Positions 4,234 through 52,901 of a DNA stretch of 64,000 nucleotides are shown here, in pieces. Below the pieces are notes generated by a model. It was not told where the DNA came from. It searched no databases and was given only the letters and a program-made list of their open reading frames with translations. The stretch spans positions 62,001 to 126,000 of the forward strand of contig CATKHK010000104.1 of the NCBI GenBank assembly GCA_949751835.1. The letters are read 5' to 3'. The position numbers were made by a program, and so were the translations under genes. How positions within the stretch are numbered: position 1 is the stretch's first letter; the number at the start of each line of letters is the position of its first letter. The DNA comes from Blepharisma japonicum. Lineage: Eukaryota; Ciliophora; Heterotrichea; Heterotrichida; Blepharismidae.

Positions 4234-4902
4234 CTTGTATATATATATGATCTACATGCAATTAATTTCCCATAGCAATATCACCATAAAGCAGGGGTTT
4301 TATTTCTGATTAATAAAATGCTCTACTGATAGATTTAAAAGTACTTTATGTTTAAAAGTTTATTGATGGCAATTTCTAGTAGAAATACAATTTTTTAAAT
4401 ATTATAGAAAATTCATTTTTATTAGAATAATTGGCGTTTTTAGAATTAATTTAAATGTAATATGTTTTGTAGTGGATAATTTTATATCGAATTGAAATAA
4501 TAGATTCAAAGAAAGAAAAGAATATAAAGACTAAAGGTTAAACATAGAAAGTTCGATCATAAAGTCAAGGAGCAAAAAAGAACTTGCAAAATCAGAATTG
4601 ATAAATTAAGAAAGAGTGGCTTTAATATAATTAATAAATAAAAACTTTATTGATCAATTTTCAGCATTAATTCTCTCAAGTTTAATTTTTAGAACTATTT
4701 TCTCTTAAAAATCAAGCAGTTAGGATGAAATAAAGAATTTTGCATTGAACTTAAAATAAAGACAAGTATTTTTCATTAAAACAAAATAGAGATAACAATA
4801 AACTTAATCAAAATTTTATATTTTGAGGAGAAATCCAAGATTCTGTTTTGCTGCTTGAGTTTATTTTAAATTTATACTGTCATCATGTTTTAAAAATTTA
4901 TA
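4234..4902. other. Divergent intergenic region
   Basis: Shared upstream region between the RING array (-) and the G-beta gene (+); AT-rich. No ORF with coding character was seen. Confidence 0.6.
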
Positions 4903-5979
4903 ATGGATTCAAGCGATCTTCTTTCTAAAATAGAAGCTGTTGAGCACTCAGTTGATTTATTAAAAGCTCAATTAGAAGACAAGCAACCAAAAATATCTAT
5001 ATCTAACTATAAATCTGCACTCCAGCCTATCAAATGTTTATTTATTGAAAGTTTGAAATTAGAAGCTCATGGTGATAGAGTTTATTCATTATCCTGAGCT
5101 GGTGGCGATTTAGCTAAGAAATTCTTAGCATCTGTAAGCGGTGATGGCCGAGTTATCATATGGAATTCATATACAGGAAATCCATCCTGCGAATGAGTTG
5201 TTAAAGACACTAATCCTACACTTATGACATGTGTGTTTGAAAAATCTACAAGCCAATTACTTGCTACTGGAAGTTTTATTGGAAAGTGCTATATTTTCCA
5301 AATCGAAATGAACCGTAAGAAAAAAATCGAAGGCAAAAACAAGCCTTTAATGGCATTTCAAGCCCATCAAGGCTATTTATCATCATTAAGTTTTATTACT
5401 CCAAAAAATCTTGTTACTTGCTCAGGTGATTCCACAGTTTGCCTCTGGGATCTCCCAAAAACAGATTTACCAGTCCACAAATTTGAAGAGCACACCGAAG
5501 ATGTCATGACAATCGACACTTGCAAAGCTAACCCTTATTTAGTTCTAACCGGCTCTTGTGATAAAACCGTCAAACTCTGAGACTTACGTCAGCAAAATTC
5601 ATCTGGAAATTCTTATCCTCACCAAGGGGATGTAAACTGTGTCAAATTTTTGCATGATTCTAATAATACCTTTTTATCAGGCTCTTCTGATGGATTTATA
5701 CGGCTTTTTGACATAAGGGCCCTCAGAGAGGTGGGAGTTTATAACGTAGGCCGAGGAGTAGAAGCCTTAGAAGTCTCTAAAAGTGGAAGAATCATTATAT
5801 GCGGCACTGACCGAGGCGATGTTATGCTATGGGACACTATTAATGAAGAACGATGCCTACAAAATTTGCCTGGGCATTCGGATAAAACTACTTCTGTTGA
5901 ACTGTCCCCTGATGGAATCCACTTAGCTACTTCTAGTTTTGATAATACTGTTGTCCTTTGGCAACACGCACATACATAA
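4903..5979 (+). CDS. Heterotrimeric G-protein beta subunit (WD40)
   Basis: A 358-aa single-exon gene close to the usual 340 aa of G-beta. It has the N-terminal helix that pairs with G-gamma (residues 1-35) followed by seven WD40 blades. Family landmarks include SVSGDGRVIIWNSYTGN (blade 1), LVTCSGDSTVCLWD, LTGSCDKTVKLWDLR, FLSGSSDGFIRLFDIRA and a closing LATSSFDNTVVLW. TGA is read as Trp at VYSLSW, at CEWVV and at the canonical blade-ending KLWDLR. It couples a seven-helix receptor and G-alpha at the plasma membrane to effectors. Only 39 bp separate it from the methyltransferase downstream. Confidence 0.9.
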
Positions 5980-28258: not shown

Positions 28259-29871
28259 TTAGTGTTATTCATGAAATTGCGAATTAAACTAATAAAAATA
28301 TGAAAATCTTATCCAGTAGGTCCATGAACATTTTGTATTTATCAAATCTTAAAAGATTGAAAACATTAGCTATATATCTTTAGATCAATTTTTAGCTTTT
28401 CACTCTAAAAAATATTAATTATTGTGTCAAATTATTTTAAAATAATTTAAATAATTTTTAATATAAAAATTAGCAAAGAATAATATAGTCTATATTTCTA
28501 TCCTCTTGTCTAGCAGGATAATTTCGATTTTTTAGTGATGACCTTCATGCTATCACAATTCAAATACTCCATTCTGAAGAAATTGATCTTAAAAAATTTA
28601 TTCACCTCACCGCATCTAATGAAAATAATTGATCCAAATATAACTAAAGCAATAACATTCACAATTTTCAAGAAAATAGAGGAGAAGGTTTCATTTTTTT
28701 GTTGCAAAAATCGCATATTTCACTATTAAAGAATTTTTTAAATAAAACTCTTCACAATAAAATTGATAGACACAGACAAAGAAATTAATATTTCTGAATA
28801 TAGTATTTACTCCATAATTGCAGACACTTTTGTTTTTCATAGTTGTTGATTTAGATTTTATTAACATCCTTTATTGCTATTTCTTAAAATATATGTAAGT
28901 GAACTATAAAAATTGTAATTGATAATTAATGTTTAATGAATAAAGATATACTTTACTTTATTGATTCAATTTATTAGTATCGGCAATTTACTATTCCTCA
29001 CATAGAGAACAAAAAATTTGAGAACTACAGATGAAAATTAAAAAATGCCCAGACATTTTGGTCTTTATTAAAATTAAAATGCAAAGTGCTAGGAATATTA
29101 TATTAAAAGTTTGAATATATAGAATATAGCTATGCTTAAAGTGCTCGCTTGCTTATTTGGAATATTAGAGGTAAAATTATTCAAATAGAAATGCTTCAAA
29201 AGTAAGATTAGTCAGAAATTTGTATTATTTTATAAGCAAATAATTTTCGAAAAGATTGAAATTAAATTTAGGATATCAAATATCAAAATTATAAAGTGCA
29301 GTTTGAGATTTGTTATCAATTGAAGATATATTAATTCAATAAATTATAAAGTAGGATAAAATGATAAAAATTCTAAAAAAATCAAGTGTCTTTTAAAAAA
29401 TAATTGAAAAGATAATTTAATAAGCTAACAATTATTTAAACAGTAGTAAACCCTTTGATTTTCTGATTTTTCTTTATCTTCATTTTTGAAACATAAAATC
29501 ACCAGCTTCACCTAACCATTTTTCTTGTCGAGGAAATTTTTAAACATGACAAACTTATACGATTTCTGAATAATTGTCCCAAATAGCTGTCATAATTCTT
29601 ATAGTTGCTTCTTGCCTTAATTTTTTTAGAATTCTTTCTTTTTGTAACGCTTTTTACTTAACAATTATTCTAGTTTCCCAATTTTTATTTTTCTTGGTTT
29701 TTCTTTTGATGCCTAATGCTTACTTAGTTCAAAATCCTTCCGAATGACTTCAGAAATTTGGCTATTTCAATTAAATTTTGCCATTTTTATCTTATTTAAC
29801 TTGATATCTTTGGGGAAGAAATTCCATTTTACAAAGCCATATTACGTAATAAATAAACCTTTATAATAATA
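28259..29871. other. Long intergenic region
   Basis: About 1.6 kb of AT-rich DNA without a convincing gene. Opposed short ORFs around 28510-28729 show no family resemblance. A 5' flank similar to that of psi-1 (CCATATTACGTAATAAATA... against CATAATATAAAGCG...) precedes the next cathepsin gene. Confidence 0.5.
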
Positions 29872-30963
29872 ATGGACAGCCTTTATTTTGATTCAGCTAA
29901 AACAAGCAACAAGAAGAAAGCAGTCTTCGCAGCCCTTGCAGTCATCGGTGTTGTTTGTGTAGTTGGTGTTATTGCTCTTTCTTCTGACAATCGTCACAAT
30001 CTTGCCCTCCAGCAATTCCAACTTGAAGAAGCCGAGTTCCAAAGCTTTATGGCCTTCTATGGCAAGAAATATTCATCTGAAGAAGAATACGCTAGAAGAT
30101 TCCAAATCTATCGCGAAAACTCAGCCTACATCAGAATTCATAACGCAGACGAAGAAGACTGGTCTTTGGCAGTCAATCAATTCGCTGATCTCACCTTTAG
30201 AGAGTTTGAAAGCCAATACCTCACTCACAGAGTTGACGTCCACAGACACCTCAGGACCCAAGTCCTCCCAGAAAAACTTACTTATCAAGCTACTTGGGAT
30301 TGGAGAAAACATGGAGCTGTTACACCAGTAAAGGATCAAGGACAATGTGGAAGCTGCTGGGCTTTCTCTGCCACTGGCGCTGTAGAGGGTGCCTGGTTCT
30401 TGGCTAACCACACTTTGGTGTCTTTAAGCGAGCAAGAGCTTGTTGATTGCTCAAGATCTTATGGAAACGCAGGATGCGATGGAGGAGATATGGATTCAGC
30501 TTTCCAATTTATTGCTCAACATGGTCTAACCACTGAAGATAACTACCCTTATGTATCTGGAAATTCTACTAACACTACAAATTCAACCTGCAACTACTGG
30601 AGAGAGGCTGAAGCAGTTGCCTGGATTTCTAATTACACTGATGTATACCCTAATAACTCAACTGTATTATTGGCATCTATCTTTTGGACTCCAGTTTCAG
30701 TAGCTGTTGATGCTACTTCATGGCAATTCTACAAGAGTGGAGTCGTCACCAAGAAATGTGGAACTCAATTAAATCACGGAGTCCTTGCTGTTGGGTACAG
30801 CACCACTGCTAAGAAGCCTTTCTATATTGTCAAGAACTCATGGGGCGCACTTTGGGGAGAAGATGGATATATCAGAGTTGGTATCCAGGAAGGAAAAGGA
30901 ATTTGCGGTATCCAAATGGCACCATCATACCCTGTGGTCGCCTATAATTATACTCAGGCTTAA
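29872..30963 (+). CDS. Membrane-anchored cathepsin-L-like cysteine protease, copy A
   Basis: A 363-aa papain-family (C1A) protease. Residues 1-17 are cytosolic ([16 protein letters not shown]) and 18-36 form a signal-anchor. An I29 prodomain covers about 50-115 ([29 protein letters not shown], an ERFNIN-type helix). The mature enzyme has the oxyanion Gln and catalytic Cys in [10 protein letters not shown], the His in [10 protein letters not shown] and the Asn in YIVKNSWG. Several N-glycosylation sequons (NHT, NST, NTT, NYT, NNST) support entry into the secretory or lysosomal route. All Trp codons are TGG. Likely a food-vacuole or lysosomal protease. Confidence 0.95.
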
Positions 30964-31239
30964 TTTAGCTTTATTCACGAAACTGTGTTAAAATAATAAA
31001 TATGATAAAATCTTATCAATAAATATTGATAAACATGTGTTAAGAAAAGACAATTTCATAAAAAAATGAAAAACTTTTACGATGTTTCGTTAAGATTGCT
31101 TTCTAAATTTTCAATCTATAATAGAAATTTTTGCAGTAATCATTATTTTTACTGAAAGTAAGGAATTATACAGTTTGAAGCCAAAAATATTAGGCAACAT
31201 TCTAAAAAATTTCAATTATTAAAATCTAATTTTAGCTTT
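30964..31239. other. Intergenic region
   Basis: AT-rich 3' flank of cathepsin copy A; nothing recognised. Confidence 0.5.
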
Positions 31240-32035
31240 ATTGTATATACTTGGGAAGGTTGAATATCATACTTTCTAGGATAGGAGACAATATTGGCTG
31301 CTGGGTTTGTCCACTATAGAGCTATTAAAGAATCTGGTTCTGGCTATAACACATTATTTTATTTCAATGAGCAAAAATTTGCCTTGCTCTTCTGGATATG
31401 CGATGAAGTCTGCATGAAGAAGTGTATTACACTTTTCAGTTTTTCATTCTACATGAGATTGATTCAGAATATAATTATTCTTATGCTGGAACTGATGGAG
31501 TGTATTATTAAAAAGAAGCAGAAGTTTTGGTGGGCATTAAAAATTATAGAGATATTTTGCCAAATAATAGCACATACTTTCTGTAAGCTATTATACAGGA
31601 AGCGTTCCTCTGTTGGGGTTGATTGAGATTCAAGATCTTGGCAGTTTTTCAAGAGAGGTATCGTGAAAAAGAGGTGGAGACTGAAATGGATTATAGGATT
31701 CAGATCTTAATTATTTTTAGTAATCCATATAGAAAAAAGTATTGAGAGCATCAATTAGGCAGTCTAATAGGATTGACGAACTATATCTGATAAATAATTC
31801 GCAAGTATTGACTTTTAGAGATATTTGTGCATATATAAAATCATATACATGCCCTAATACATAATACGATAGAAAGAAAAAGTTATTATATTGTCAAAAG
31901 TCGATGGAATATAGATTGGGATAAATGAGTACATATAAAGCTAGGCATTAAAGAAAGAAAGGAATTTTGTGAGACCTAGATGGAGTCATTACTCTGTGGT
32001 ATCCATTTTGCTCAAATGAATTTTAATTCTAATTA
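31240..32035 (+). pseudogene. Strongly decayed cathepsin-L-like gene (psi-2)
   Basis: Fragments in order match the cathepsin neighbours. Around 31285-31330 a GCW and VEGAWFL-like stretch remains from the catalytic Cys region. Around 31466-31510 EYNYSYAGTDGV corresponds to NYPYxxxNGTC. Around 31875-31960 KSYYIVKS and the following Trp-rich segment correspond to the catalytic Asn region. Frames change repeatedly, and no prodomain or start is visible. Same orientation as the intact genes. Confidence 0.65.
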
Positions 32036-32663
32036 TTTTCTGAAGGTTTATCATGCAATACTTTTTTTAGATAAATTAAATTTGAGTCAAAACTCGAGCC
32101 GCTGCATAGCTTTTAGTTAAATTTTTTTAATTTTTAAAATTTTAGTATTATCTTCTAAATCTTTTTATTATCTAAATTATTCTAGCATAAAAAATAAAAT
32201 ATTCAAGGAATAATTCCAGGCTTTAAAATTTAATGACTCTCAATGTTTTCAATTTATTCAGAAAATGCTATCTCAAAGAAGCCTCTAGCACACAATTTAA
32301 ATTACTATCTCGAGTATTCACAATCTCAAACTTTTCCGCCATTTATGCTGTTGAGTAAAATCAAAAAATGAGTGAGATTTGATTTTTTAACCTTTTCAGT
32401 CACATTCTCCCTAATTTTCACTCTTTATCAATTCCAATGAAATTGCCAAGTCATATCAGCATTTCCTTATAATTTCTACAATTTAAAATGAAATTTATTA
32501 TAAACAATGTTTGGCAAGCCTTATTCATTTTTCGATTAATTATTCACATCCCAGAATATTCCCTTCTTAAAAAGTGATTAAATAAATTTAGGACATATCT
32601 TTGGTGAACAAATTCATATTATCAAAGCCATTTTTACATAAGCTGGTGAAGTTTATAATATAA
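32036..32663. other. Intergenic region
   Basis: AT-rich upstream region of cathepsin copy B. No gene seen. Confidence 0.5.
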
Positions 32664-33758
32664 ATGGAAAGTCTTTATTTCGATTCTTCAAAGTCGAGCA
32701 AGAAGAAAGCTCTTTATGCAGCTCTAGCAGTCATAGGGGTTGTTTGCATAGTTGGAGCTATCGCTCTTGCAACTTCAGGGCCAGGTTCAATTGCCCTTCA
32801 GCAATTCCAGCTCGAAGAACAAGAGTTCCAAGAGTTTATGGCTCTCTACAATAAAGAATACTCCACACCTGAAGAATACGTTCACAGATTCCAAGTCTTC
32901 CGTGACAATGCAGCCTATATCAGAATCCACAACAGCCTAGGAGAAGACTGAACCTTAGGAGTCAATGAATTTGCTGACCTTTCCTTCAATGAATTTGGCA
33001 GTATTTACCTCAAGAGTAAAGTCCCTAAGTCTGCACTTAAAGCTACTACTGCTCCTAAAGCTGTGCCAAGTGATGTTAAAATTTATCCATCATGGGACTG
33101 GAGACAGTGGGGCAAAGTAACCTCAGTTAAGAACCAAGGAAAATGTGGAAGCTGTTGGGCTTTTTCAGCTACTGGAGCAGTTGAAAGCTTGTGGGCGATC
33201 TCCAATCACACTTTGATCGACCTCAGCGAGCAAGAACTTGTTGACTGCTCGTCTAACTTCGGCAACTCTGGCTGCCAAGGCGGCTGGATGAACAATGCAT
33301 TTGACTTTATTCAGCAAAATGGCTTGACCTCTGAAGCAAACTATCCTTATACTGCTACTAACGGAACCTGCAACTACACTTTGGCAGCACAATCAAATAT
33401 CACTCGTATTGATGGGTATCAAGTCCCAGTTGCGAACAGCAGCGTTTGGCTTGAAATCAGCCTCTTAACTAATCCAGTATCTGTTGCAGTCCAAGCCGAC
33501 CAAAAAATATGGCAGCTTTATAAGGGAGGAGTAGTGACCAAGAACTGTGGAACTGACTTAGACCATGGAGTACTTGTTGTTGGATATAATTCAGTCGTGC
33601 AAACACCTTACTTTATTGTCAAAAACTCTTGGGGCACTCAGTGGGGAGAGCAAGGATATATCAGAATTGGAGTCCAAGATGGTGCCGGCGTTTGTGGAAT
33701 CCAGATGTACCCATCTTATCCGTTCTATCTGAACCCTTATAATGCCACTAAGGCTTAA
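32664..33758 (+). CDS. Membrane-anchored cathepsin-L-like cysteine protease, copy B
   Basis: A 364-aa C1A protease with the same plan as copy A: cytosolic MESLYFDSSKSSKKK, signal-anchor (about 17-35), I29 prodomain, then QGKCGSCWAF, DHGVLVVGY and YFIVKNSWG. One TGA (Trp) falls in the prodomain (GEDWTLGVNEFADLSF), which breaks the frame in the standard code but is the conserved Trp of this motif in copies A and C. Many sequons (NHT, NGT, NYT, NIT, NSS, NAT). Likely lysosomal or phagosomal. Confidence 0.94.
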
Positions 33759-34356
33759 GGTTAATCGTTAAGATTCCTTCTGAATTTTGACTTTTAATTT
33801 TTCTATTAATATGAAAATAAATGCAAGTCATATTGCAATACTTTGAAAAATAAATAATAAGCGAGCTTAAGCTTATTAAATCAATTCAAATTTATGTTTT
33901 ATGCTTCATTTATATTCTTCCATAAATTAATTTTAAGGATTTGAATAAAGACTTTGATTAAGAGCCATATAAAGATCTGAATTGTGTGAATAACAAAATA
34001 TAAACTAAATTTTCAAGATATTATAATAGGTTTCAGTCTTCTAATTCTAATAATCCTATATAAGAAACCTTCATTATATAATATAAGCCTCTTCGTTTAA
34101 ATTTTTAATTTCTCCACTATTTGATCTAATAATAAGGAATTTATTTCATCATACAATGTGCACTATATTCCTCTATATTATATTGTGCTTTTGTGGCGAT
34201 TTCACTCAAATAGTGGTTAGCACTTCTCGTGCTACTTTAATTTTCTTTGCTATAAATTAAACTGCAAGCTTTTATTAGTGTCTGTGGTCTCCTTCAAATG
34301 CCTATTATCTCTAATGCTGTTAAATATTTCGACTTTGTTGAATAAAAATAAATAAG
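33759..34356. other. Intergenic region
   Basis: AT-rich, about 600 bp; no gene recognised. Confidence 0.5.
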
Positions 34357-35412
34357 ATGGATTCCTTATCCTTTTATACCTCTTCAAAAAAATCCAAAAT
34401 CTTCTACACATCTCTTGCCATTTTTGGAATTGTCTGTGTAGTCGGCGTCATCGCTCTCACATCTTCAAATCCCCCTTCACCAGGACTTCAACAATTCCAA
34501 CTAGAAGTTGAAGAATTCAATCATTTCCTTGCCCGTCACAACAAGCTGTATTCAACCGCCGAAGAGTATGCCAGAAGGTTTAAGGTGTACCGTGACAACT
34601 CAGCTTTTATTAGAATTCACAATTCACAAGCAGGAAGCTGGGTATTAAAAGCAAACCAATTCGCTGATATCTCATTTGCAGAATTCAAGAGCCTTTATTT
34701 AGGAACCAAGACTCAAGCTCACTATGCAAAGAGGGTAGCTGAAGAAAGCAATGTAGTAATTCCTGATGCAATTGACTGGAGAGAAGCAGGAGCAGTGACT
34801 AAAGTAAAAAACCAAGGAGGATGTGGAGGCTGCTGGGCTTTTTCTACAACTGGAGCTGTAGAAGGTGCTTGGTTCTTGGCTAACCATACCTTAGTGTCCC
34901 TTAGTGAACAAGAGCTTATTGATTGCTCAAGATCATATGGGAATGAAGGTTGCAATGGAGGACTTATGGATTACGGCTTTGAGTTCGTAATACAGAATGG
35001 TCTAACTACAGAAAAGCATTATAAATATACAGGGAGAGATGGAGTTTGCAACCAAACTAAAGTTGCAAATGTTTCTGCTACCATTTCTGCATATGTCGAT
35101 GTATCGCCTAATAACAGTACCGCATTACTTGCTGCTCTTACTCATGGCCCAGTTTCAGTCGGTGTGCAAGCTGATCAAGCTGCCTGGCAATTCTATGGAG
35201 GCGGAATCATAGACAAAAGCTGCGGGACAAACCTAGACCATGGAGTACTTGTAGTTGGCTTCAATAGAACCACAGTTCCTGCTTACTACATCGTCAAGAA
35301 CTCTTGGGGACCTTACTGGGGTGAAGACGGCTACATCCGAATTGCAGTAAAAGAAGGAAAAGGCCTTTGTGGAATACAGATGATGCCCTCTTATCCTATA
35401 ATCAATAAATAA
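34357..35412 (+). CDS. Membrane-anchored cathepsin-L-like cysteine protease, copy C
   Basis: A 351-aa third intact array member: short cytosolic tail, signal-anchor (about 18-36), I29 prodomain, mature C1A domain. The catalytic motif is QGGCGGCWAF (Ser before Cys replaced by Gly, seen in some active papains). His is in DHGVLVVGF and Asn in YYIVKNSWG. The activation region is VVIPDAIDWREAG. All Trp codons are TGG. It ends 24 bp before the HP1-like gene on the same strand. Confidence 0.94.
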   Translation: MDSLSFYTSSKKSKIFYTSLAIFGIVCVVGVIALTSSNPPSPGLQQFQLEVEEFNHFLARHNKLYSTAEEYARRFKVYRDNSAFIRIHNSQAGSWVLKANQFADISFAEFKSLYLGTKTQAHYAKRVAEESNVVIPDAIDWREAGAVTKVKNQGGCGGCWAFSTTGAVEGAWFLANHTLVSLSEQELIDCSRSYGNEGCNGGLMDYGFEFVIQNGLTTEKHYKYTGRDGVCNQTKVANVSATISAYVDVSPNNSTALLAALTHGPVSVGVQADQAAWQFYGGGIIDKSCGTNLDHGVLVVGFNRTTVPAYYIVKNSWGPYWGEDGYIRIAVKEGKGLCGIQMMPSYPIINK

Positions 35413-37251: not shown

Positions 37252-37505
37252 TTATATATGAATTAATAACGTTTTTTTATAATAAGCACCTCGTTATTAT
37301 CGCTTGTCTAATTAATTACTCAACAATACACACTAAACTAAACTCTTTTAAATAAAGCATTTTAAATCTTAATAAACTGCAATAATTTTTTTAGTGATAG
37401 CCAAATAAATCTTGTGGCTCAAATCTTTTCAAAATTTCTCATTACTCTTTATTTTTCCTCTGAGTTTATTTTTGTCAATATTTATGAATTATTAATATTG
37501 TTAAA

Positions 37506-39764
37506 ATGTCTACTGAAGAAGAAAAACAGTTTATAGAAGAAGATGAGGACAAATCACAAGAAGACGACCTTGCAGATTTAGTGTTAATCTTCAAGAACCC
37601 CTACACCGATCCTGACAAAGGCTTGCTGTGCCAGCTCAATTCTTGAATGAAAGAAAAAGAAGCCAAACATTTTTATCGAGTCCTTTTCAAACTCCACGAC
37701 AAAGAGACCGAAATCCCTCTGTTTCAACAGATTGAAAAAGAAATCGACCCCCTAATTGAAGGATGTGCCAAAGAAGGCTGGGTGAATCTCAAAGATATTG
37801 GCTCTTCCATCATCGAAAATATCTTCAAGGTTTTGCAAGACCACTTGAAGCTACAGATTCAGCTCTTTTATTCAAGAGACCGTGATGAAATTTTTTGCAG
37901 GGTCACCTGTAGCGAAACAAACCTGATGGTGCAGGCAGACCTGATTGATTACCCTTTACAGTTTAAAAAACGGATATTGGATTTACAGGACTTCAAGCAG
38001 GTATCACCATATGGTCCTTTTGAAAAGACAGAAAACTCATTAGAACTCTATAGGAGGTATGATGAAATGGAAATGGAGACTTCTGACGAGAAAGGCACCT
38101 TATTCCAATACAAGGACAGAGAAAGAATTGTGTACTCAATTATCAATAGTAGCATAGATTTGGCTAACCTTCAAGCAGAAGGACTGCTAAATAATGTTTT
38201 AGCCTTGCATAGGAAAAAACAATTAGATTATTTCATACAAACCTGGGCACTCAATAAAAATCCCTTTAAGCGCCAAGATGTTGATAGGCTAAGAGTCTAC
38301 TTCGGAGAAAAAATAGCTATGTATTTTGCATGGATTGAGTTTTTGACTGCATTTTTGGCTCCTTTTGCGATTATTAGTATTATTTTAGGTATCATTTTTT
38401 ATGCTTTACAAGATGAGGATGACGAGGATGACTCACTTTCAGGTGGAGAAGTAACCATTGTAATCCTTGCTTTTATGCTGCCTATTTTGTCCACATTTTA
38501 TGACCAATTCTGGCTCCGAGAACAATCAAAGTTGGCTTGGCGCTGGGGAACTACCGAAATTGAAGCCTTGAACGAACAAAGACCACAGTTTCGAGGAGAG
38601 TTCAGAAAAGATGAAATAACTGGAAGAATGAAGAAAGTTGCACCAGTTACTCATTGGACAACAACAAGGAAAGCAATAGGCTTTTCTGTGCTAGCACTTT
38701 TCGTCACCCTTGTCTTGGCCTGCGTTATTGTTTTGTTTGTTTATAGATCGACCTTAGATCAGAGGTCGTGGAAAGTTACAGCTGTAGGAGTAGGAAACGC
38801 TATTCAAATCAAAATTTTCAACTTAATTTATGCGAGAGTTGCTCAACAGCTTAATGATTGGGAAAATTATGAAACCTATAATGATTATAATGATGGACTC
38901 ACTCTTAAACTTTTCTTGTTTCAGTTTATCAACTGTTATTCTAGCTTATTTTATATTGCTTTCTGCAAAGGAAACTTTGAAGGGTGTGTTGATGAAGACT
39001 GTATTTATGAACTTACAAAGCAGCTTGAATCAATTTTTATTACAAATTTCTGCTTAAATCTAGTAGAAATTTATTTGCCATTACTAACTACTAAGTACAA
39101 AAATTGGTCTGAAGAGAAAAGGGTCAAAAAACTTAAAGAAACCGACCCAAGCTATAGAATAAACTTAACTCCAGCTGAATTCCAAGCAAAACTATCTAAA
39201 TATGATACTCCCTTATCTGTAACTTTTATGTAGGATTATATGGAAATTATTATGTCATATGGATATGTCATACTTTTTGGAGCCAGTTTTCCGTTCTCCT
39301 TGGCTTTGCTTTTCTTCTTAATTTTCGTAGAAATTAAAGTTGACTCTTGGAAGATGTGCACACTGACACAAAGACCATACCCTCAGAGATCAAATTCTAT
39401 TGGAGTTTGGCTTCAAATTATCCAGGTGATTTCTTTTATTGGGGCAGGAACTAATATGGCAATAATTATATTTACAACTGATGCTTTCGAAATTGAGGAT
39501 ACCAAAAATAAATGGTTGATATTCCTCATTCTTGAGCACAGTTTGATTATTCTGAAAATAATCCTTAATGTCCTAATCCCAGATATCCCAACTATTGTGA
39601 CAAAAGGCCTTATGTGGAGTAAGGTTCAAGTCGACGAAAAATTATATGGAAAAATTTCTGATGTAGATAAATGCAGGAGCCTCAAAAACCTAGAGTTTGA
39701 GGACCCTCCAAATACGCAAAAAGTAAAGACAGATTTCAAATCGATTCCTTTTACAACTGAGTAA
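37506..39764 (+). CDS. Anoctamin/TMEM16 family membrane protein
   Basis: A 747-aa anoctamin. The acidic cytosolic N-terminal domain ends near residue 240. The channel/scramblase block follows: YFAWIEFLTAFLAPFAIISIILG, VTIVILAFMLPILSTFYDQFWLREQSKLAWRWGT, the intracellular loop RPQFRGEFRKDEITGR, and after the intron MSYGYVILFGASFPFSLALLFFLI, which matches the QYGFVTLF block near the calcium site. TGA is Trp at LNSW. The 15-nt intron (39219-39233) removes a TAG that would cut off the last quarter. Likely a calcium-activated chloride channel or lipid scramblase; which one cannot be told here. Confidence 0.9.
39219..39233 (+). other. 15-nt intron in the anoctamin gene
   Basis: GTAACTTTTATGTAG, phase 0; removes an in-frame TAG. 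A at position 10. Confidence 0.88.
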
Positions 39765-44107: not shown

Positions 44108-47100
44108 ATGATTGTTTTTTATTTTGTTATAAACTATATGCAGCCTATTCAATGTTACCTTTTGAAAACGCTAGTACTCTTTGTTCTTTTAGGTAAAATC
44201 AGTTCAATAGAAATCATCTCAATTTTTTCTGATAATCCTCAAACAAATGCGAATTCTGACAGCATATACGCAAATAAGCCCTATTATCTTGAAACTTTTA
44301 AAGTTGTTGAACCTTTTGCTGAGTTTCACGAATGCAACTTTTCCAAAATATTTGAGTGTCTTTCATCTTATCCAAATAGTTCCATCTTGCTTGACTTGTC
44401 AAGCGATCTTGATGTCCACCTTTCCCTTTCCCAAATCAGCAAAAACCATATGTTGATTCATTTGGTTTTTAATAATGACCTGAAGTACTCCAATAAGTGG
44501 ACTTATTCAATCACGCCTTCAAAATCAAGCCAAATGGATTCGTTTTTTTCCTTGCTCAGATATTTTAATTGGACTGAAGGAATAGTATTTTTCAACGACC
44601 TAAGCTATGAGTTAAAAACTGAAATTAATCAGTTTTCATCAGAGCTCAAGTTTATCTCTGTGGGATCAGATACAAACATTGATCAACTGGTCAACAAAAT
44701 AGTTTTTCGGCTTGGAGAAACTCTTTACTATATTCTAACAGATTCCCTACAATCAGTTTACTTGCAAAATTCTTTGAAAAATGCAGATCTTTTGAATGCT
44801 GGAACAGGAATTATTTTAGATCAGAAAAGCGGCTACAATTGTACATGTGAAGGAGCACTGATAATTACTGAAATTGGCCATGAATTTGATTCCAGCCCTA
44901 CCGAGTATATAGTAAAATCCATCATTGATATCGTTTCATATTTACTGAATAATATTTCTTCAGAATCTCTCAACGAACTTGTGTCGTTGCTTGATTTTTA
45001 CCTTCCAAACAAAAGTATAAAAAATGAGTTTTCAATTGTCAATATTCAAAACGGTCAAAGAGTAATTGTTGGCTCCATTATCAATAATAAAGTTAATCTT
45101 ACTAGGGACCTAGTTTTCCCTGGTAAAGAAAAAAATACTCCAAAATCAACCAAAAAAGTACTAAAAATCAGCATAAATGATGGTACATCTAATCCTGGCT
45201 TTGCTCCCAGTGAGGGCTCAAAATCCCGCTCAATGGGCTCCTATATAGCTGTAGATAAAATTAATGAAGGTACAAATATTTTATCTAATTTCCAAGTCAG
45301 TATATACAGTTTCGACTGCGGGGTCACTATATTTAACGAGTCATTTGCAAAAGCCTGTTTCACAAAAGATGCTGATCAATTGGGTTTAGCCCATTTAACT
45401 AGTTTTGGGTCTGCAGTAGCAATAGGGACGTTGCATTTGCTTCAAAAACTAAACATGAGTATTCCATGCATCGGCAGCACAAATATGGACCCATCTTTGC
45501 AGTCTTCAGCGGCTTTCCCGATGTATGTAAGAACGATTGCTTCATCTACATATGGACAACTTATATCATTAGTAAGTGTAATGAGATGGAAAAAGGCCAC
45601 AATAATTTATGAAAATAATGGATGGAGCATCACTGCTTATAAGCTCATAGTAGATATGTCAAAATACTTGGAAATTGAGTTTATTAACCCTGCAAACTTA
45701 CACGCTATACCTCCAGGATTGAACGGAACTACAATTTTGGACTATGCGAACGTTTTCCAAGCGATCATAAATTCGCAAGCAAGGTTATTAATACTACTAT
45801 GCCAGTACCCGACATCTAATTATGCAGCAGAATATTTGTATGATTTAGGGATGAGGAAAGGAGATCTTGTTATCTATGCAGGAGCATCTGATACTCTTAA
45901 CTATTTTTTAACAAATGATACGAATTTATATAAAAGATTTGCAGTTGGATATTCAGCTGTACAGATCCTTTACCCAGTATGAGCTGGAGAATTGGGACAA
46001 GAGACCAAAAATAGAATTTTTAACAAATATCATAAACAGCCAGCTGGAGCTAGTTGCTCTTATTATGATTCTGTTTATTTAGTAGGAAACGCTTTAGACT
46101 ATATAATTAATAGAGGACAAAATTATACTGACCCAAAAAAATTAATGAAGGCAATAAGAAGTACGAAATTCATCGGATGCACGGGAACAGTAAGCATTGA
46201 TAATGGTAGCAATGACCGAATTTTTGATACCTTTTTAATTCAAGCAATTAAAGCTAACGAAGATGGAAATCCATTAATCTATACTGTTGGGGAGATGAAG
46301 CCATTCAGTTCCCAGCTCTTGTCTATTAAAGAGCCTATAACTTATGCAGATGGGACAACAAATAAGTCAAGCGATTTAAGAAACGCTAATTATGAATGCC
46401 CGTTCCCTGATGATAAAGTTCAAACTTTTGCCAAAGGACGAGCGATTCTCTTCATAATTTGTTTTGCAGTTAGTTTGACCACTATAGTAATAACTTTTAT
46501 AATATGAAAACAATGGTGAAATATTCCTATTGAAGCTCTCAAAGATAAGCATGAAATTTCTTTACAAGATACTATAGTGGGGCTGACTATTGCTATAGAA
46601 TTTTTTCAATTCTCAGCTATGGGGCCAGATGCCTCTCTTATAAGTTCTTTCCTCTATAATATTAGCAACGCTTTGTCTTTAAATTTGGGGAATATTTTTA
46701 AAATGAGAAATGGGATTTTTTGGATTGTGGTGGATGTTGTTTACGGAGGAGTATTTTTATGGGTCATATTTTGTACAGTTGTTTTATTTAGACTTGACGA
46801 AAAATGGCAATTTATATGGATTTTTAGATTTTTAGGATCAGCTGAAGATTACCTAATGCCGGTTTTGGGAAATCTTTGCTTTATTCCTTTTGTTTCAATC
46901 TGCCTCGATATATTTGTGTGTGATCAATCTGTCGGTGATCATTTCACTGACAGTTTTCTTGCGAAAGACTGTTTTTATTTCTGCTGAAAAGATGAACATT
47001 TATATTATGCTTGCTTTGCATTTATTGCATTAATAGCTTATGAGCCGCTAGCTGTATTTTGTCGTCCCCTTTGGCAAGAGCTACAGCCAACACTTCATGT

Positions 47101-47572
47101 AAAATCGGCTCCATTATTTTTGATGATGAAAACTATTATTCAGACGATTTTAATTGTATTGAATAAGACAGTAAAAAGGGCATCAGATATTGGTCATGGA
47201 ATTGTATTTATTGCTGTCATGATCATTTATATAGCATTTATTTTTCGGTTTAAGCCTTATAACTATGCAAGATTCAGCTTATGGCAAGGCATGAGCTTGA
47301 TAGGAGTCGTGTGGTTAGCATTGCTATCAACAATTGGGTTGGGTTTTCAAAGTAGCAGTCTCTCAACACCTTTGCTGCTTATTTTGATTTTTGGATGGAT
47401 TTTGATGGTTTCTTTTGGACTTTATGTGCAGCATAAAAAGTATCCAAGCATGCTTTATAGAGCTAAGGCGAGAGACACCAATACTCTATTTAAATTTGCT
47501 TTTACATTTGGCAAGGTGTCAAAGAAGAGGCTGGAACAGTTTAAAAAGGGATCAAAAACTGTTTCAATCTAA
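44108..47572 (+). CDS. Large receptor with extracellular ligand-binding lobes and multi-pass membrane region, copy 1
   Basis: A 1154-aa single-exon protein; the frame runs through TGA (Trp) at 45980-45982, 46505-46507 and others. Signal peptide: about residues 12-35. The extracellular part (36-780) looks like two periplasmic-binding-protein/ANF-receptor lobes: one at about 36-345 (FFSLLRYFNWTEGIVFFND is typical of the family) and a clearer one at about 360-770 (SRSMGSYIAVDKINEG, LTSFGSAVAIGTLHLLQKLNMSIPCIGS, YGQLISLVSVMRWKKATIIYEN, SYYDSVYLVGNALDY). A membrane region (about 780-1110) with seven to nine spans follows, then a short basic tail. The membrane part does not show class-C GPCR motifs that I recognise. 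Probable chemoreceptor; ligand unknown. Confidence 0.82.
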
Positions 47573-48186
47573 TAAATATAATTTATATAAATTGAAAATA
47601 CTAAATGTCCTTTTGCAAATATATAAAGCAGAGTATTTAATTATCCTTTTATACATAAATTTTAGAAGTTTACTTATTATGCATAGTTTCAGCTTTAGCT
47701 TTTGTTTAACTGCAGATTATAAGATCAGTTTAATAATTAAGCAATAATATCATATTTTCAAAGCTTTCCTGGTTTTCCATCTAATTAGGTGTATAAAAAA
47801 TATCCTTAGTTTTATCACAAAAACTTTCATATTTGAGACATGCTACAATTTTTGATTGAGGCTTTGAATATATGTTTCATTTGCTAAATCATCATTTCAA
47901 GGGCAATCTATATCTATACTTATCTATTTTATAAATAAAAAAAAATTAGCAATATTTTTATAAAGAGTAGCCGAGCATTTTGATATGTTAAAATACACTA
48001 AATCAAGTGTGCAAAATACTTTTATAAGTTATGAAATGAGCATATAGTATAGCATACGTTATTAAATAAAAGACTTTGTTTTATTGGGTAAATAAGTTAG
48101 ATTGATTGGATTAATTAAATAACTGCTAATCCTAGGTGTACAAAAGTAAACTTCTATAAATTGCATTACTAAAGGATTTTATAAGT
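47573..48186. other. Intergenic region downstream of receptor 1
   Basis: AT-rich. 47619-47920 is similar to 53163-53460 downstream of receptor 2, so the duplicated segment extends about 330 bp past the stop codon. No gene seen. Confidence 0.6.
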
Positions 48187-48640
48187 TTGACCTTGCAGTT
48201 TGAAACCAAAGGTAAGCTGCAAGTGAGGTCCACAGAGAAAAAGATTTGGATAAATTATTTGAAAAAATTATAATTAAGAAAAAAAGAGGGATGTTATTTG
48301 TAAAATTTATAAATATTTCTTGGATAATTCAGTAAAGCTCGAAGCTTATGGAATTTTTGTAAAAACTTTAGAAAAATGAAATAAATTATAGGATTCAGTT
48401 CAAATTTAATTGTAAGCTGAATATAACTATTATAGTTTTTAATGAAGTAGGTAATAATAAGATTATTTATTTAGAAATTAATCAAACCAAGCTGAGATGC
48501 TCTCTATATATCAACAGCTTATATCAATAGATACATCCCTCTGAGGCAAATTATGGAAGTAGAGCTTTGCGAGCTGGAAAGTCTTTTATTAACTGCAATA
48601 AAATATTAAAAAGGTATATTAAGAAAAGATTTTATTAAAT
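48187..48640 (+). pseudogene. Decayed 3' copy of the unknown gene at 41923
   Basis: Nearly collinear with 42838-43297 (last exon of the intact gene): TTGACCTTGCAGTTTGAAAC at the start, then recognisable LDKLFEK, KLEAYGI, RIQ and MEVxLCELESLLLT segments, broken by deletions, frameshifts and stops. The 5' exons are absent, so the duplication breakpoint lies inside this gene, near 42838/48187. Confidence 0.85.
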
Positions 48641-49439
48641 TTTATTTATTAATTTATCATCCAATTAATAATTTATTTTTTTAAATTTATTTTGATAAAT
48701 TGATATAATTTAAATTAAATTTTCTTAAGTAATCGGCAATTTTGCATAGAAAGAGCATTTTGATATAAAAAATATTAATTAATAATTTTTAAAATTAAAG
48801 ATGAAATAAAGGTATTCATATTTTTCAATATTCTGCTGCTAGATGAGTGAATAAAGCTGCAAGTGCCAGACAAACTCTGAACTTTTCAAGCTAAAATTTT
48901 CCTACCCTCTTTATTTGGGTCTGAGTGGTAATAATAAGAACTTTACTAATCAAATTTAAATACTATCAAGATTCTCAATAACATGCTAGGTAAATTTTTC
49001 AAAAATTATTATAGCTACAGCATTATTTCTAATAAAGTAAATTATTTAACTTGATTTTTACTATCCTAAATAAGGATAAATATTGTTATCGCATGAAATC
49101 AAAGGGATTTGACTTGATTTGAAAATATTTTAGTGCCTAAGGAATATGAACTGATATTTAAGAAATGTTCTTTTGGATGCTATTTAAATAAAATTTTGCA
49201 TACGAAAGCTTATGAAATTACAGAATAATTTAATTTGGCTAATATTCAGTATTTTGTAGTTATTATAAATTTTATTATGCATCTTAATAAATTTAGGTAA
49301 ATATCAAACTCAGATAATAATTTTAAAAAATTTTGTGTTTAATTTTTATTGGTAGCCAAATAGAAGCTTGCTGAATGCTGGTTAATAATTTAAAATATAT
49401 TGAATGGGTTGGCTTTGATCAAGATTTTATTACTAAAAT
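48641..49439 (+). other. Upstream region of receptor 2 (duplicated)
   Basis: Diverged counterpart of 43298-44107. The final ~70 bp before the ATG are the best conserved part. Confidence 0.6.
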
Positions 49440-52400
49440 ATGATTGTTTTTTATTTTTTTACAATTAATATGCAGTCAATTCAATGCCAACTTTGGAAAG
49501 CACTAGTGCTCTTTGTTCTTTTAGTTAAAATCAGTTCAATAGAAATCATATCAGTTTTTTCTGATAATCCTCAAACAAATGCGAATTCTGATAACATATA
49601 CGCAAATAAGCCCTATTTTCTTGAAACTTTAAAAGCTGTTGAACCTTTTGCTGAGTTTCACGAATGCAACTTTTCAAAAATAATTGAGTGTCTCTCATCT
49701 TACCCAAATACTTCCATCTTGCTTGACTTATCAAACGACCTTGATGTCCACCTTTCCCTTTCCCAAATAAGCAAAAATCATATGTTGATTCATTTGATTT
49801 TTAATAATGACCTGAAGTACTCCAATAAGTGGACTTATTCAATCACGCCTTCAAAATCAAGCCAAATGGATGCTTTTTTTAGCTTGCTCAGATATTTCAA
49901 CTGGACTGAAGGAATAGTATTTGGCAACGACCTAAGCTATGAATTAAAAACTGAAATTAATCAGTTTTCATCAGAGCTCAAGTTTATTCCTGTGGGATCA
50001 GATACAAACATTGATCAACTGATCAAAAAAATAGTTTTTCGGCTTGGAGAAACTCTTTACTATATTCTAACAGATTCCCTACAATCAGTTTACTTGCAAA
50101 ATTCTTTGAAAAATGCAGATCTTTTGAATGCTGGAACAGGAATTATTTTAGATCAGAAAAGCGGCTACAATTGTACATGTGAAGGAGCACTGATAATTAC
50201 TGAAATTGGCCATGAATTTGATTCCAACCCTACCGAGTATATAGTAAAATCCATCATTGATATCGTTTCATATTTACTGAATAATATTTCTTCAGAATCT
50301 CTCAACGAACTTGTGTCGTTACTTGATTTTTACCTTCCATACAAAAGTATAAAAAATGGGTTTTCAATTGTCAATATTCAAAACGGTCAAAGAGTAATTG
50401 TTGGCTCCATTATCAATAAGAAAGTTAATCTTACTAGGGAACTAGTTTTCCCTGGGAAAGAAAAGAATACTCCAAAATCAACCAAAAAAGTGCTAAAACT
50501 CAGCATAAATGATGGGATATCTAATCCTGGCTTTGCTCCCAGTGATGACTCGAAATCCCGTTCAATGGGCTCCTATATAGCTGTAGATAAAATTAATGAA
50601 GGTTCAAATATTTTATCTAATTTCCAAGTCAGTATATACAGTTTTGATTGTGGAATTACTATATTCAATGAATCGTTTGCAAAAGCCTGTTTCACAAAAG
50701 ATGCTGATCAATTGGGTTTAGCCCATTTAACTAGTTTTGGGTCTGCAGTAGCAATCGGAACGTTGCATTTGCTTCAAAAACTAAACATGAGTATTCCTTG
50801 CATTGGCAGCACAAATATTGACCCATCTTTGCAGTCTCCAGCAGCTTTTCCGATGTATGTAAGAACGATTGCTTCGTCTACATATGGACAACTTATATCA
50901 TTAGTAAGTGTAATTGGATGAAAAAAGGCTGCAATAGTATATGAAAATAATGGATGGAGCATCACTGCTTATAAGCTCATAGTAGATATGTCAAAATACT
51001 TAGGAATTGAACTGATTAACCCTGAAAATTTACGCGCTATACCTCCAGGATTGAACAGAACTTCAATTTTGGACCATGAGAATGTTTTTCAAGCGATCAT
51101 AAATTCACAAGCAAGGTTATTAATACTATTGTGCCAGTATCCAGTATCTAATTATGTAGCAGAATATTTGTATGATTTAGGGATGAGGAAAGGAGATCTT
51201 GCTATATATGCAGGGGCAGCTGACACCCTTAGCTATTTTTTAAAAAATGATACATATTTATATAAAAGATTTGCAGTTGGGTATTCAGCTGTGACAATTA
51301 TTTATCCAGTATGAGCTGGAGAAGTTGGTCAAGATACCAAAAATAGAATTTTCAACAAATATCATAAACAGCCAGCAGCTAGTTGCTCTTATTATGATTC
51401 TGTTTATTTAGTAGGAAACGCTTTAGACTATATGATTAATAGAGGACAAAATTATACTGACCCAAAAAAATTAATGAAGGTAATAAGAAGCATGAAATTT
51501 GTTGGATGCACTGGAACGGTAAGCATTGAAAATGGTAGCAATGACCGAATTTTTGATACTTTTGTAATTCAAGCAATTAAAGCTAACGAAGATGGAAATC
51601 CATTAATCTATACTGTTGGGGAGATGAAGCCATTTAGTGCCCAGCTCTTGTCTCTTGAAGAGCCTATAACTTATGCAGATGGGACAACAAATAAGTCAAG
51701 CGATTTAAGAAACGCTAATTATGAATGCCCGTTCCCTGACGATAAAGTTCAAACTTTTGCCAAAGGACGAGCGATTAACTTCATAATTTGTTTTACAGTT
51801 AGTTTGACGACTATAGTAATAACTTTTATAATATGAAAACAATGGTGAAATATTCCTATTGAAGCCCTCAAAGATAAGCATGAAATTTCTTTACAAGATA
51901 CTATAGTGGGGCTGACTATTGCTATAGAATTTTTTCAATTCTCAGCTATGGGGCCAGATGCCTCTCTTATAAGTTCTTTCCTCTATAATATTAGCAACGC
52001 TTTGTCTTTAAATTTGGGGAATATTTTTAAAATGAGAAATGGGATTTTTTGAATAGTGGTGGATATTGTTTACGGAGGAATATTTTCATGGGTTATATTT
52101 TGCGCAGTTGTTTTATTTAGACTCGACGAAAAATGGCAATTTATATGGATTTTTAGATTTTTAGGATCAGCTGAAGATTACCTAATGCCGATTTTAGGAA
52201 ATCTTTGCTTTATTCCTTTTGTTTCAATCTGCCTTGATATATTTGTGTGTGATCAGTCTATCGGTGATAATTTCACTGACAGTTTTCTTGCGAAAGACTG
52301 TTTTTATTTCTGCTGAAAGGATGAACATTTATATTATGCTATTTTTGCATTTATTGCATTAATAGTTTACGAGCCACTAGCTGTATTTTGTCGTCCTCTT

Positions 52401-52901
52401 TGGCAAGAAATACAGCCAGCACTTCATGTAAAATCGGCTCCATTATTTTTGATGATGAAAACTATTATTCAGACGATTTTAATTGTATTGAATAAGACAG
52501 TAAAAAGAGCATCAGATATTGGTCATGGAATTGTATTTATTGCTGTCATGATCATTTATATAGCGTTTATTTTCCGGTTTAAGCCTTATAACTATGCAAG
52601 ATTCAGCTTATGGCAAGGTATGAGCTTGATAGGAGTCGTGTGGTTGGCATTGCTATCAACAATTGGGTTGGGTTTTCAAAGTAGCAGTCTCTCAACACCT
52701 TTGCTGCTTATTTTGATTTTTGGGTGGATTTTGATGGTTTCTTTTGGACTTTATGTGCAGCATAAAAAGTACCCAAGCATGCTTTATAGAGCTAAGGCGA
52801 GAGACACCAATACTCTATTTAAATTTGCTTTTACATTTGGCAAGATGTCAAAGAAGAGGCTGGAACAGTTTAAAAAGGGATCAAAAACTGTTTCAATCTA
52901 A
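49440..52901 (+). CDS. Large receptor with extracellular ligand-binding lobes and multi-pass membrane region, copy 2
   Basis: A 1153-aa tandem paralogue of the receptor at 44108, one residue shorter (KQPAAS against KQPAGAS). Same layout: signal peptide, two ligand-binding-type lobes, seven to nine membrane spans, short basic tail. The frame reads through TGA at VIGWKK, YPVWAGE, FIIWKQWW, IFWIVV and FCWKD. At two of these codons copy 1 has TGG, a synonymous TGG/TGA exchange. The last 150 residues differ at one position (KMSKK against KVSKK), while the N-terminal 100 residues differ at many, pointing to uneven constraint or gene conversion. Ligand unknown. Confidence 0.82.

Follow-up and report, generated by a model that had tools for sequence, protein, structure and literature searches.

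Two tandem genes of Blepharisma japonicum belong to a large family of candidate surface chemoreceptors with serial Venus flytrap domains on a membrane core of about nine spans

We analyzed a 64,000-nucleotide stretch of Blepharisma japonicum DNA (contig CATKHK010000104.1, positions 62,001 to 126,000 of the forward strand; C104:62001-126000 in the 45.2-Mb, 224-contig assembly that we searched), here called the window, which carries two adjacent genes for large membrane proteins at window positions 44108-52901. The best joint explanation, to which we give a probability of about 0.5 with its mechanism included, is that the pair belong to a large family of ciliate surface chemoreceptors that has grown in part by tandem duplication. 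Judged from their sequences, the proteins have a signal-like N terminus, two serial Venus flytrap (VFT) domains of which the first is degenerate, a stalk with a conserved Cys-Pro-Phe (CPF), a conserved core of about nine predicted spans, and a tail that is short, basic, and conserved; Pfam searches found neither 7tm_3 in the core nor any enzyme domain. The architecture and the family pattern point to a receptor with a chemosensory role. VFT receptors are a known kind of protein; what appears new is that tandem VFTs are joined to a core matching no catalogued family.

Translation with table 11 fragments the region into pieces. With TGA read as tryptophan, the region holds two uninterrupted frames from stop to stop, 1156 and 1154 codons long, with four in-frame TGA codons in gene 1 and six in gene 2. 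In the available part of a report on Blepharisma stoltei, UGA likewise encodes tryptophan (PMC9942806). Gene 1 (44108..47572, start ATG at 44108, stop TAA) encodes a protein of 1154 amino acids, P0001; gene 2 (49440..52901, start ATG at 49440) is a tandem duplicate with the same layout and encodes P0002, of 1153 amino acids. Both genes, and all features described below for them, lie on the plus strand, and the two proteins are 93% identical. At about 1150 residues, calling them "giant", as was done in an earlier reading of this DNA (the sequence-only reading), was an overstatement. The frames are not due to chance, since an alignment of the family (A1), in which P0001 and P0002 stand with 27 other full-length loci (29 sequences in all), keeps the same full-length layout. 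The dN/dS ratio between the genes, 0.23 overall, fits constraint on the protein, i.e., purifying selection. Because dS is a mosaic along the pair (0.09 in the first VFT domain, 0.25 in the second, 0.11 in the core), patchy gene conversion between the two genes is suggested. Gene 1 opens with a hydrophobic stretch resembling a signal peptide (44108..44209; hydropathy peak at aa 21-39).

The second VFT domain (VFT2) is solidly identified. It matches ANF_receptor (PF01094) with 71.5 bits in P0001 (aa ~353-745, 45164..46342; E 8.8e-20, aa 380-705) and 78.7 bits in P0002 (50496..51671; E 5.4e-22, aa 380-706), over a curated cut-off of 25.4, in agreement with the ANF-receptor features that the sequence-only reading had seen in a second lobe. 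A VFT2 profile from the 29 paralogs had the mGluR7 ectodomain as its top match in the PDB (E 3.1e-10), with other mGluRs, a plant GLR, and taste and GABA-B receptors below it.

Class C receptors bind the alpha-amino acid group at two places, with a Thr and an Asp. In our mapping of these places, which rests on an alignment at ~22% identity, both residues are kept in three deeper relatives (L001, L002, and L006). In the window-type set of 29, the Thr place is held by S in 10, T in 8, G in 5, M in 2, A in 2, and I and L in 1 each, Asp occurs at the Asp place in none, and S435, R475, and D654 are invariant. Since window members lack the class C residues for the alpha-amino acid group, this group has probably changed its ligand, which is unlikely to be a plain amino acid, while deeper members may still bind amino-acid-like ligands.

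The first domain (VFT1; aa 35-345, 44210..45142 in gene 1 and, by alignment to gene 1, 49542..50474 in gene 2) is a degenerate VFT that ends in an 'FSIVNIQNG...VG...FPG' segment. Its identity follows from remote homology and not from the window proteins alone. In the PF01094 search, which the sequence-only reading had proposed as a check, VFT2 was over the cut-off and the isolated VFT1 of P0001 was under it, at 16.9 bits, with backing from relatives. When the first domains were isolated from the window-type proteins, 18 of 29 matched PF01094 at E<=1 (best E 5.4e-5). A VFT1 profile matched only the ends of GluN1 amino-terminal domains (from E 0.011) and taste receptors (from 0.12) in the PDB.

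The deeper relatives are more informative. In four of the six that we scanned (L001, L002, L003, and L006), Pfam marks ANF twice and Peripla_BP_6 two or three times; in the other two (L004 and L007), it marks each once. For L001 (contig C133), the genome scan gave separate PF01094 matches of 62 bits to the first domain and 147 bits to the second. Using hhalign, VFT1 and VFT2 of these four relatives aligned with each other over 352 columns (P 1.2e-7; reversed control, 0.26). The window-type first domain aligned with their VFT1 over 275 columns (P 2.6e-4, at a probability of just 42%; reversed control, P 0.71) and with their second VFT at P 0.061. L009-L011, which are other proteins, were excluded from the relatives' alignment. 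A small profile of the relatives' VFT1 reached E<1e-3 in just one of the 29 window-type first domains by hmmsearch, and a profile comparison of VFT1 and VFT2 within the window-type family gave only 11 residues common to both cuts. Since the deeper relatives show two ANF stretches and align to the window first domain, we read this domain as a VFT, and its anatomy as supported and good. Thus, the two successive binding lobes of the sequence-only reading stand as two domains, the first by remote homology, each of them better described as a two-lobed VFT domain; together they reach aa ~745 in both proteins, the ectodomain length that it had given.

A short stalk follows (aa 746-779, 46343..46444 in gene 1), in which C-P-F at aa 764-766 is invariant in A1. 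The membrane core (aa 780-1108; 46445..47431 in gene 1 and, by alignment, 51774..52760 in gene 2) has about nine predicted spans, an RPLWQ motif that is invariant in A1, and a Cys-containing loop at 939-963. Across the 29 paralogs, hydropathy has nine main peaks (781-799, 822-840, 873-891, 919-937, 965-983, 1000-1018, 1028-1046, 1062-1080, and 1089-1107) and minor ones at 842-860 and 902-920; the peak at 822-840, at 1.29, is barely over the ectodomain peaks of 1.0-1.16. Loop 4 is acidic with two conserved Cys, 25 of 29 paralogs carry a glycosylation sequon in loop 6, and the predicted cytosolic tail (47432..47569 in gene 1), which contains a conserved 'DT..LFKFAFTFGK' motif, averages 8.4 K/R versus 1.1 D/E. 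A topology of nine spans with the N terminus outside and the C terminus inside fits best, within the seven to nine spans predicted earlier: the Cys, the charge, and most sequons agree with nine, with misfits that we weigh below.

Searches of the B. japonicum genome, whose counts are lower bounds or numbers of matches listed, place the pair in a large family. In a protein search with P0001, the best 40 of 337 candidates, query included, were all nearly full-length, at 47-100% identity. From 30 loci cut out (window pair included), 29 gave open frames of 1135-1175 codons in code 4. The only broken frame, L029 (longest frame 677, with a TAG within the match), was excluded from A1. Genome-wide, PF01094 gave at least 106 matches (102 of 267 candidates scored); the window genes themselves are absent from the 106 listed. 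An 18-base degenerate DNA pattern for R-P-L-W-Q-[EQ] had 125 exact matches, and the backwards pattern had none. With the divergent core of L004 as query, at least 103 places were found among 263 candidates, and all 103 scored at E<1e-32.

For 49 of the 103 listed core matches, a listed ANF match lies 142-196 bases upstream on the same strand. Conversely, 52 of the 106 listed ANF matches lie more than 3.5 kb from any listed core match; among these 52, at least the C133 pair is two matches of one gene, and L001-L003 and L006-L008 do carry the core. Adding some 50 further ANF loci to the 103 listed cores, we put the family at ~150 related loci, a rough lower bound for loci and not a count of intact genes. 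Much of it is tandem-arrayed: contig C19 holds 22 of the 103 listed core matches, and the nearest relative is on the same contig for 22 of 29 sequences (mean 8.9, maximum 17 in 1000 shuffles). Mean pairwise identity is 0.45 in VFT1, 0.49 in VFT2, 0.65 in the core, and 0.68 in the tail (aa 1109-1140). The pattern of the family, numerous paralogs whose VFTs vary on conserved cores, is chemoreceptor-like. The family itself is solidly established. Using tblastn, we found no relatives in viral_contigs (12 pattern stretches) or genome_contigs (60 stretches), collections that by description hold viruses, bacteria, and archaea and are uninformative on spread in ciliates.

The membrane core gave no credible match in Pfam, NCBIfam, or the PDB. 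Pfam searches found 7tm_3 (PF00003) in neither P0001 nor P0002 at E<=10, and in none of 24 core sequences at E<=1, bearing out the earlier impression of a membrane region unlike class C G-protein-coupled receptors (GPCRs). The 24 cores matched no credible Pfam family, the best being S_4TM (E 0.0092, matched by three members), and with the window proteins NCBIfam yielded no match at E<=1; the whole protein is covered by no known family in either database, a match of the kind that the sequence-only reading had named as refuting it. The Pfam matches of the window proteins at E<=10 include no cyclase catalytic domain. In the PDB, a core profile gave one match at E 0.9 and no class C GPCR at E<=10.

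These results bear on the idea that the proteins are very divergent class C GPCRs, GABA-B-like in having only a short stalk, and no cysteine-rich domain, between VFT and membrane domain, with an extra VFT and extra spans, that signal via G proteins or a substitute. We consider this rather unlikely. The ectodomain argues for it, as mGluR ectodomains head the matches of the VFT2 profile and taste and GABA-B receptors rank lower, and L001 has WGGGSSSPPADEW before its first span, with variants in L002-L006; to our eye this sequence recalls GABA-B. A G-beta gene also lies within the window (4894-5976; PF25391, 164.6 bits, cut-off 150), as the sequence-only reading had noted, ~38 kb from the receptor genes. 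On the other side are the missing 7tm_3, the lack of any class C GPCR among the PDB matches, the ~nine spans, and the genome-wide PF00003 search, in which all three matches, one over the cut-off, are other proteins. In addition, a six-frame PF00503 search detected no full-length G-alpha in the assembly (its named controls were prokaryotic, with no eukaryote control). The 19 matches obtained all fall in profile 159-264, which we take to be the stretch common to ARF-like GTPases, and none is over the cut-off alone. G-protein coupling is therefore doubtful, and this result together with a core without 7tm_3 tilts against a classical GPCR. Any functional link between the G-beta gene and the receptors, which the sequence-only reading had called not shown, is unsupported. 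Separately, L009, L010, and L011 are frames of 431-433 amino acids with 7tm_3-like spans, one at 38.2 bits and over the cut-off; their C-terminal part looks to us like an RGS domain.

Two further explanations have less in their favor. A relationship to ionotropic glutamate receptors is very improbable. L001 VFT2 matches a plant GLR3.4 chain (E 4e-18), and the VFT1 end weakly resembles the GluN1 amino-terminal domain, as given above; against this, neither the window proteins nor the six relatives contain a Lig_chan pore or type II ligand domain by Pfam, and the membrane region differs. VFT domains descend from solute-binding proteins, which would suit a surface binding or uptake receptor that does not signal, capturing nutrients for endocytosis or acting as a nutrient transceptor, and a model for branched-chain amino acid binding proteins matches L001 weakly (23.2 bits, cut-off 477). 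However, the core and tail are conserved without a recognizable transporter domain and the family pattern is chemoreceptor-like, and we regard such a function as improbable.

We favor a channel-type or other non-GPCR receptor, with the mechanism inside the membrane a guess. The ectodomain would face outward, and VFT2, in some members also VFT1, would close on a small ligand. VFT1 may serve mainly as a dimerization or tuning domain, by analogy with the amino-terminal domain of ionotropic glutamate receptors. Closure would be passed through the stalk to the core, which may itself gate ion flux or whose tail may recruit a partner, with no heterotrimeric G protein involved. With many paralogs, variable VFTs on a steadier core could feed many ligands into a single signaling output, much as olfactory families do. 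A stronger version, in which two stacked flytraps gate a nine-span, G-protein-independent core, with at least 150 genes per cell making a unicellular analogue of an olfactory repertoire and the whole a previously undescribed class, seems unlikely to us.

One specific form of channel is a core in the fungal-type TRP-like (PF06011) superfamily, making the proteins VFT-gated Ca2+ or cation channels. We view this as possible but less likely than not. By eye, the motif order is the same. A broader core profile aligned collinearly with PF06011 cores of the same genome over 277 columns (hhalign score 28.8, P 0.008), against 16.7 for the reversed control and 13.1 for another 7TM family of the genome (L009-L011). 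Of seven stretches taken for this comparison, L057 and L062 (frames <250 residues) did not enter the PF06011 profile. A second large gene family of the genome joins TRP-like cores to cysteine-rich ectodomains (L052-L055, on C15, C110, C139, and C69; 57 matches listed). However, PF06011 matched none of the 24 cores at E<=1, and smaller preceding comparisons scored 20.5 and 24.8. Moreover, one of 30 block-shuffled controls scored 29.2, above the 28.8 obtained, and the narrower core profile A5 scored 20.5 (P 0.1), at the level of the shuffles.

These last two results also count against our preferred interpretation, as do several others. The VFT1 of P0001 is under the PF01094 cut-off when taken alone. 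In the nine-span topology, 14 of 29 paralogs have a sequon in loop 1, predicted inside, and loop 6, predicted outside, is basic (2.9 K/R). AlphaFold models were unusable, both for the full length from both window proteins (pLDDT 28.1, pTM 0.22) and for the core alone (pLDDT 41.2, pTM 0.22). The presence of G-beta and 7tm_3-type proteins in the genome would suit G-protein-like signaling, and one 676-amino-acid frame on C42 has two G-alpha-like stretches that pass the cut-off when summed.

Comparison with known systems shows which parts of the layout are shared. Like class C GPCRs (GABA-B, mGluR, T1R), the proteins join a VFT ectodomain of ANF_receptor type to a membrane domain with several spans, with a short stalk between the two as in GABA-B; unlike them, they have two VFTs per chain and ~nine spans, and neither 7tm_3 nor a full-length G-alpha was detected. 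The VFTs resemble the LIVBP-type amino-terminal domains of ionotropic glutamate receptors and plant GLRs, which also have two stacked clamshells, but here the second clamshell is again of ANF type and a Lig_chan pore was not detected. What the proteins share with fungal-type TRP-like proteins (PF06011, Flc family) is a large ectodomain, a polytopic core, and by eye a similar motif order, without a significant sequence link to the core. According to the available part of one source, Trypanosoma receptor-type adenylate cyclases, also a multigene protist family, mostly carry tandem VFTs in the ectodomain, in their case on a single membrane span and a cytosolic cyclase (PMC6027212), whereas the proteins described here have ~nine spans and no enzyme domain was found. 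Thus, the claim that the layout is undescribed holds in part: tandem VFTs are known from these cyclases (PMC6027212), and a literature search of titles and abstract starts, which left most subscription papers and preprints outside, found no tandem-VFT multi-span receptor.

Such a family could have been missed by earlier surveys. In the part available to us, a GPCR survey of 24 ciliates, Blepharisma not among them, reports no class C receptors, having screened for the glutamate family with PF00003 and BLAST (PMC9960496), and a 2025 survey that includes ciliates used PF00003 for glutamate-type receptors (PMC12716839). Since the core has no recognizable 7tm_3, a PF00003 screen would miss this VFT-receptor family. 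Gamone 2 is an amino acid derivative according to the portion consulted of a further source (PMC10892320). A VFT family of this size provides concrete candidates for receptors of amino-acid-type signals, gamone 2 included. To our knowledge, little has been settled about the receptors through which ciliates perceive food, mates, and poisons. A core that has no Pfam model, in a genome with no evident full-length G-alpha, would raise the question of how VFTs signal without heterotrimeric G proteins.

Other surface families and neighboring genes were noted along the way. We considered whether the core is common to ephrin-receptor-like (PF07699) proteins of the genome; examination of 10 loci out of 87 matches listed did not bear this out (best E 0.29 and 0.084). 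L042-L049 combine Kelch-like repeats (by eye), ephrin-receptor-like repeats, and hydrophobic stretches, and form another multigene surface family. Several members with PF06011 cores have TAA or TAG inside. In the window, a neighboring VPS9-domain gene has GT-AG stretches of 15 and 16 nt around it, which may be due to chance; B. stoltei introns are mostly 15 and 16 bp in the available part of the report (PMC9942806). Three consecutive papain-type cysteine protease genes lie at window positions 29857-35412, and a gene for an anoctamin-type membrane protein (PF04547) lies at 37401-39233.

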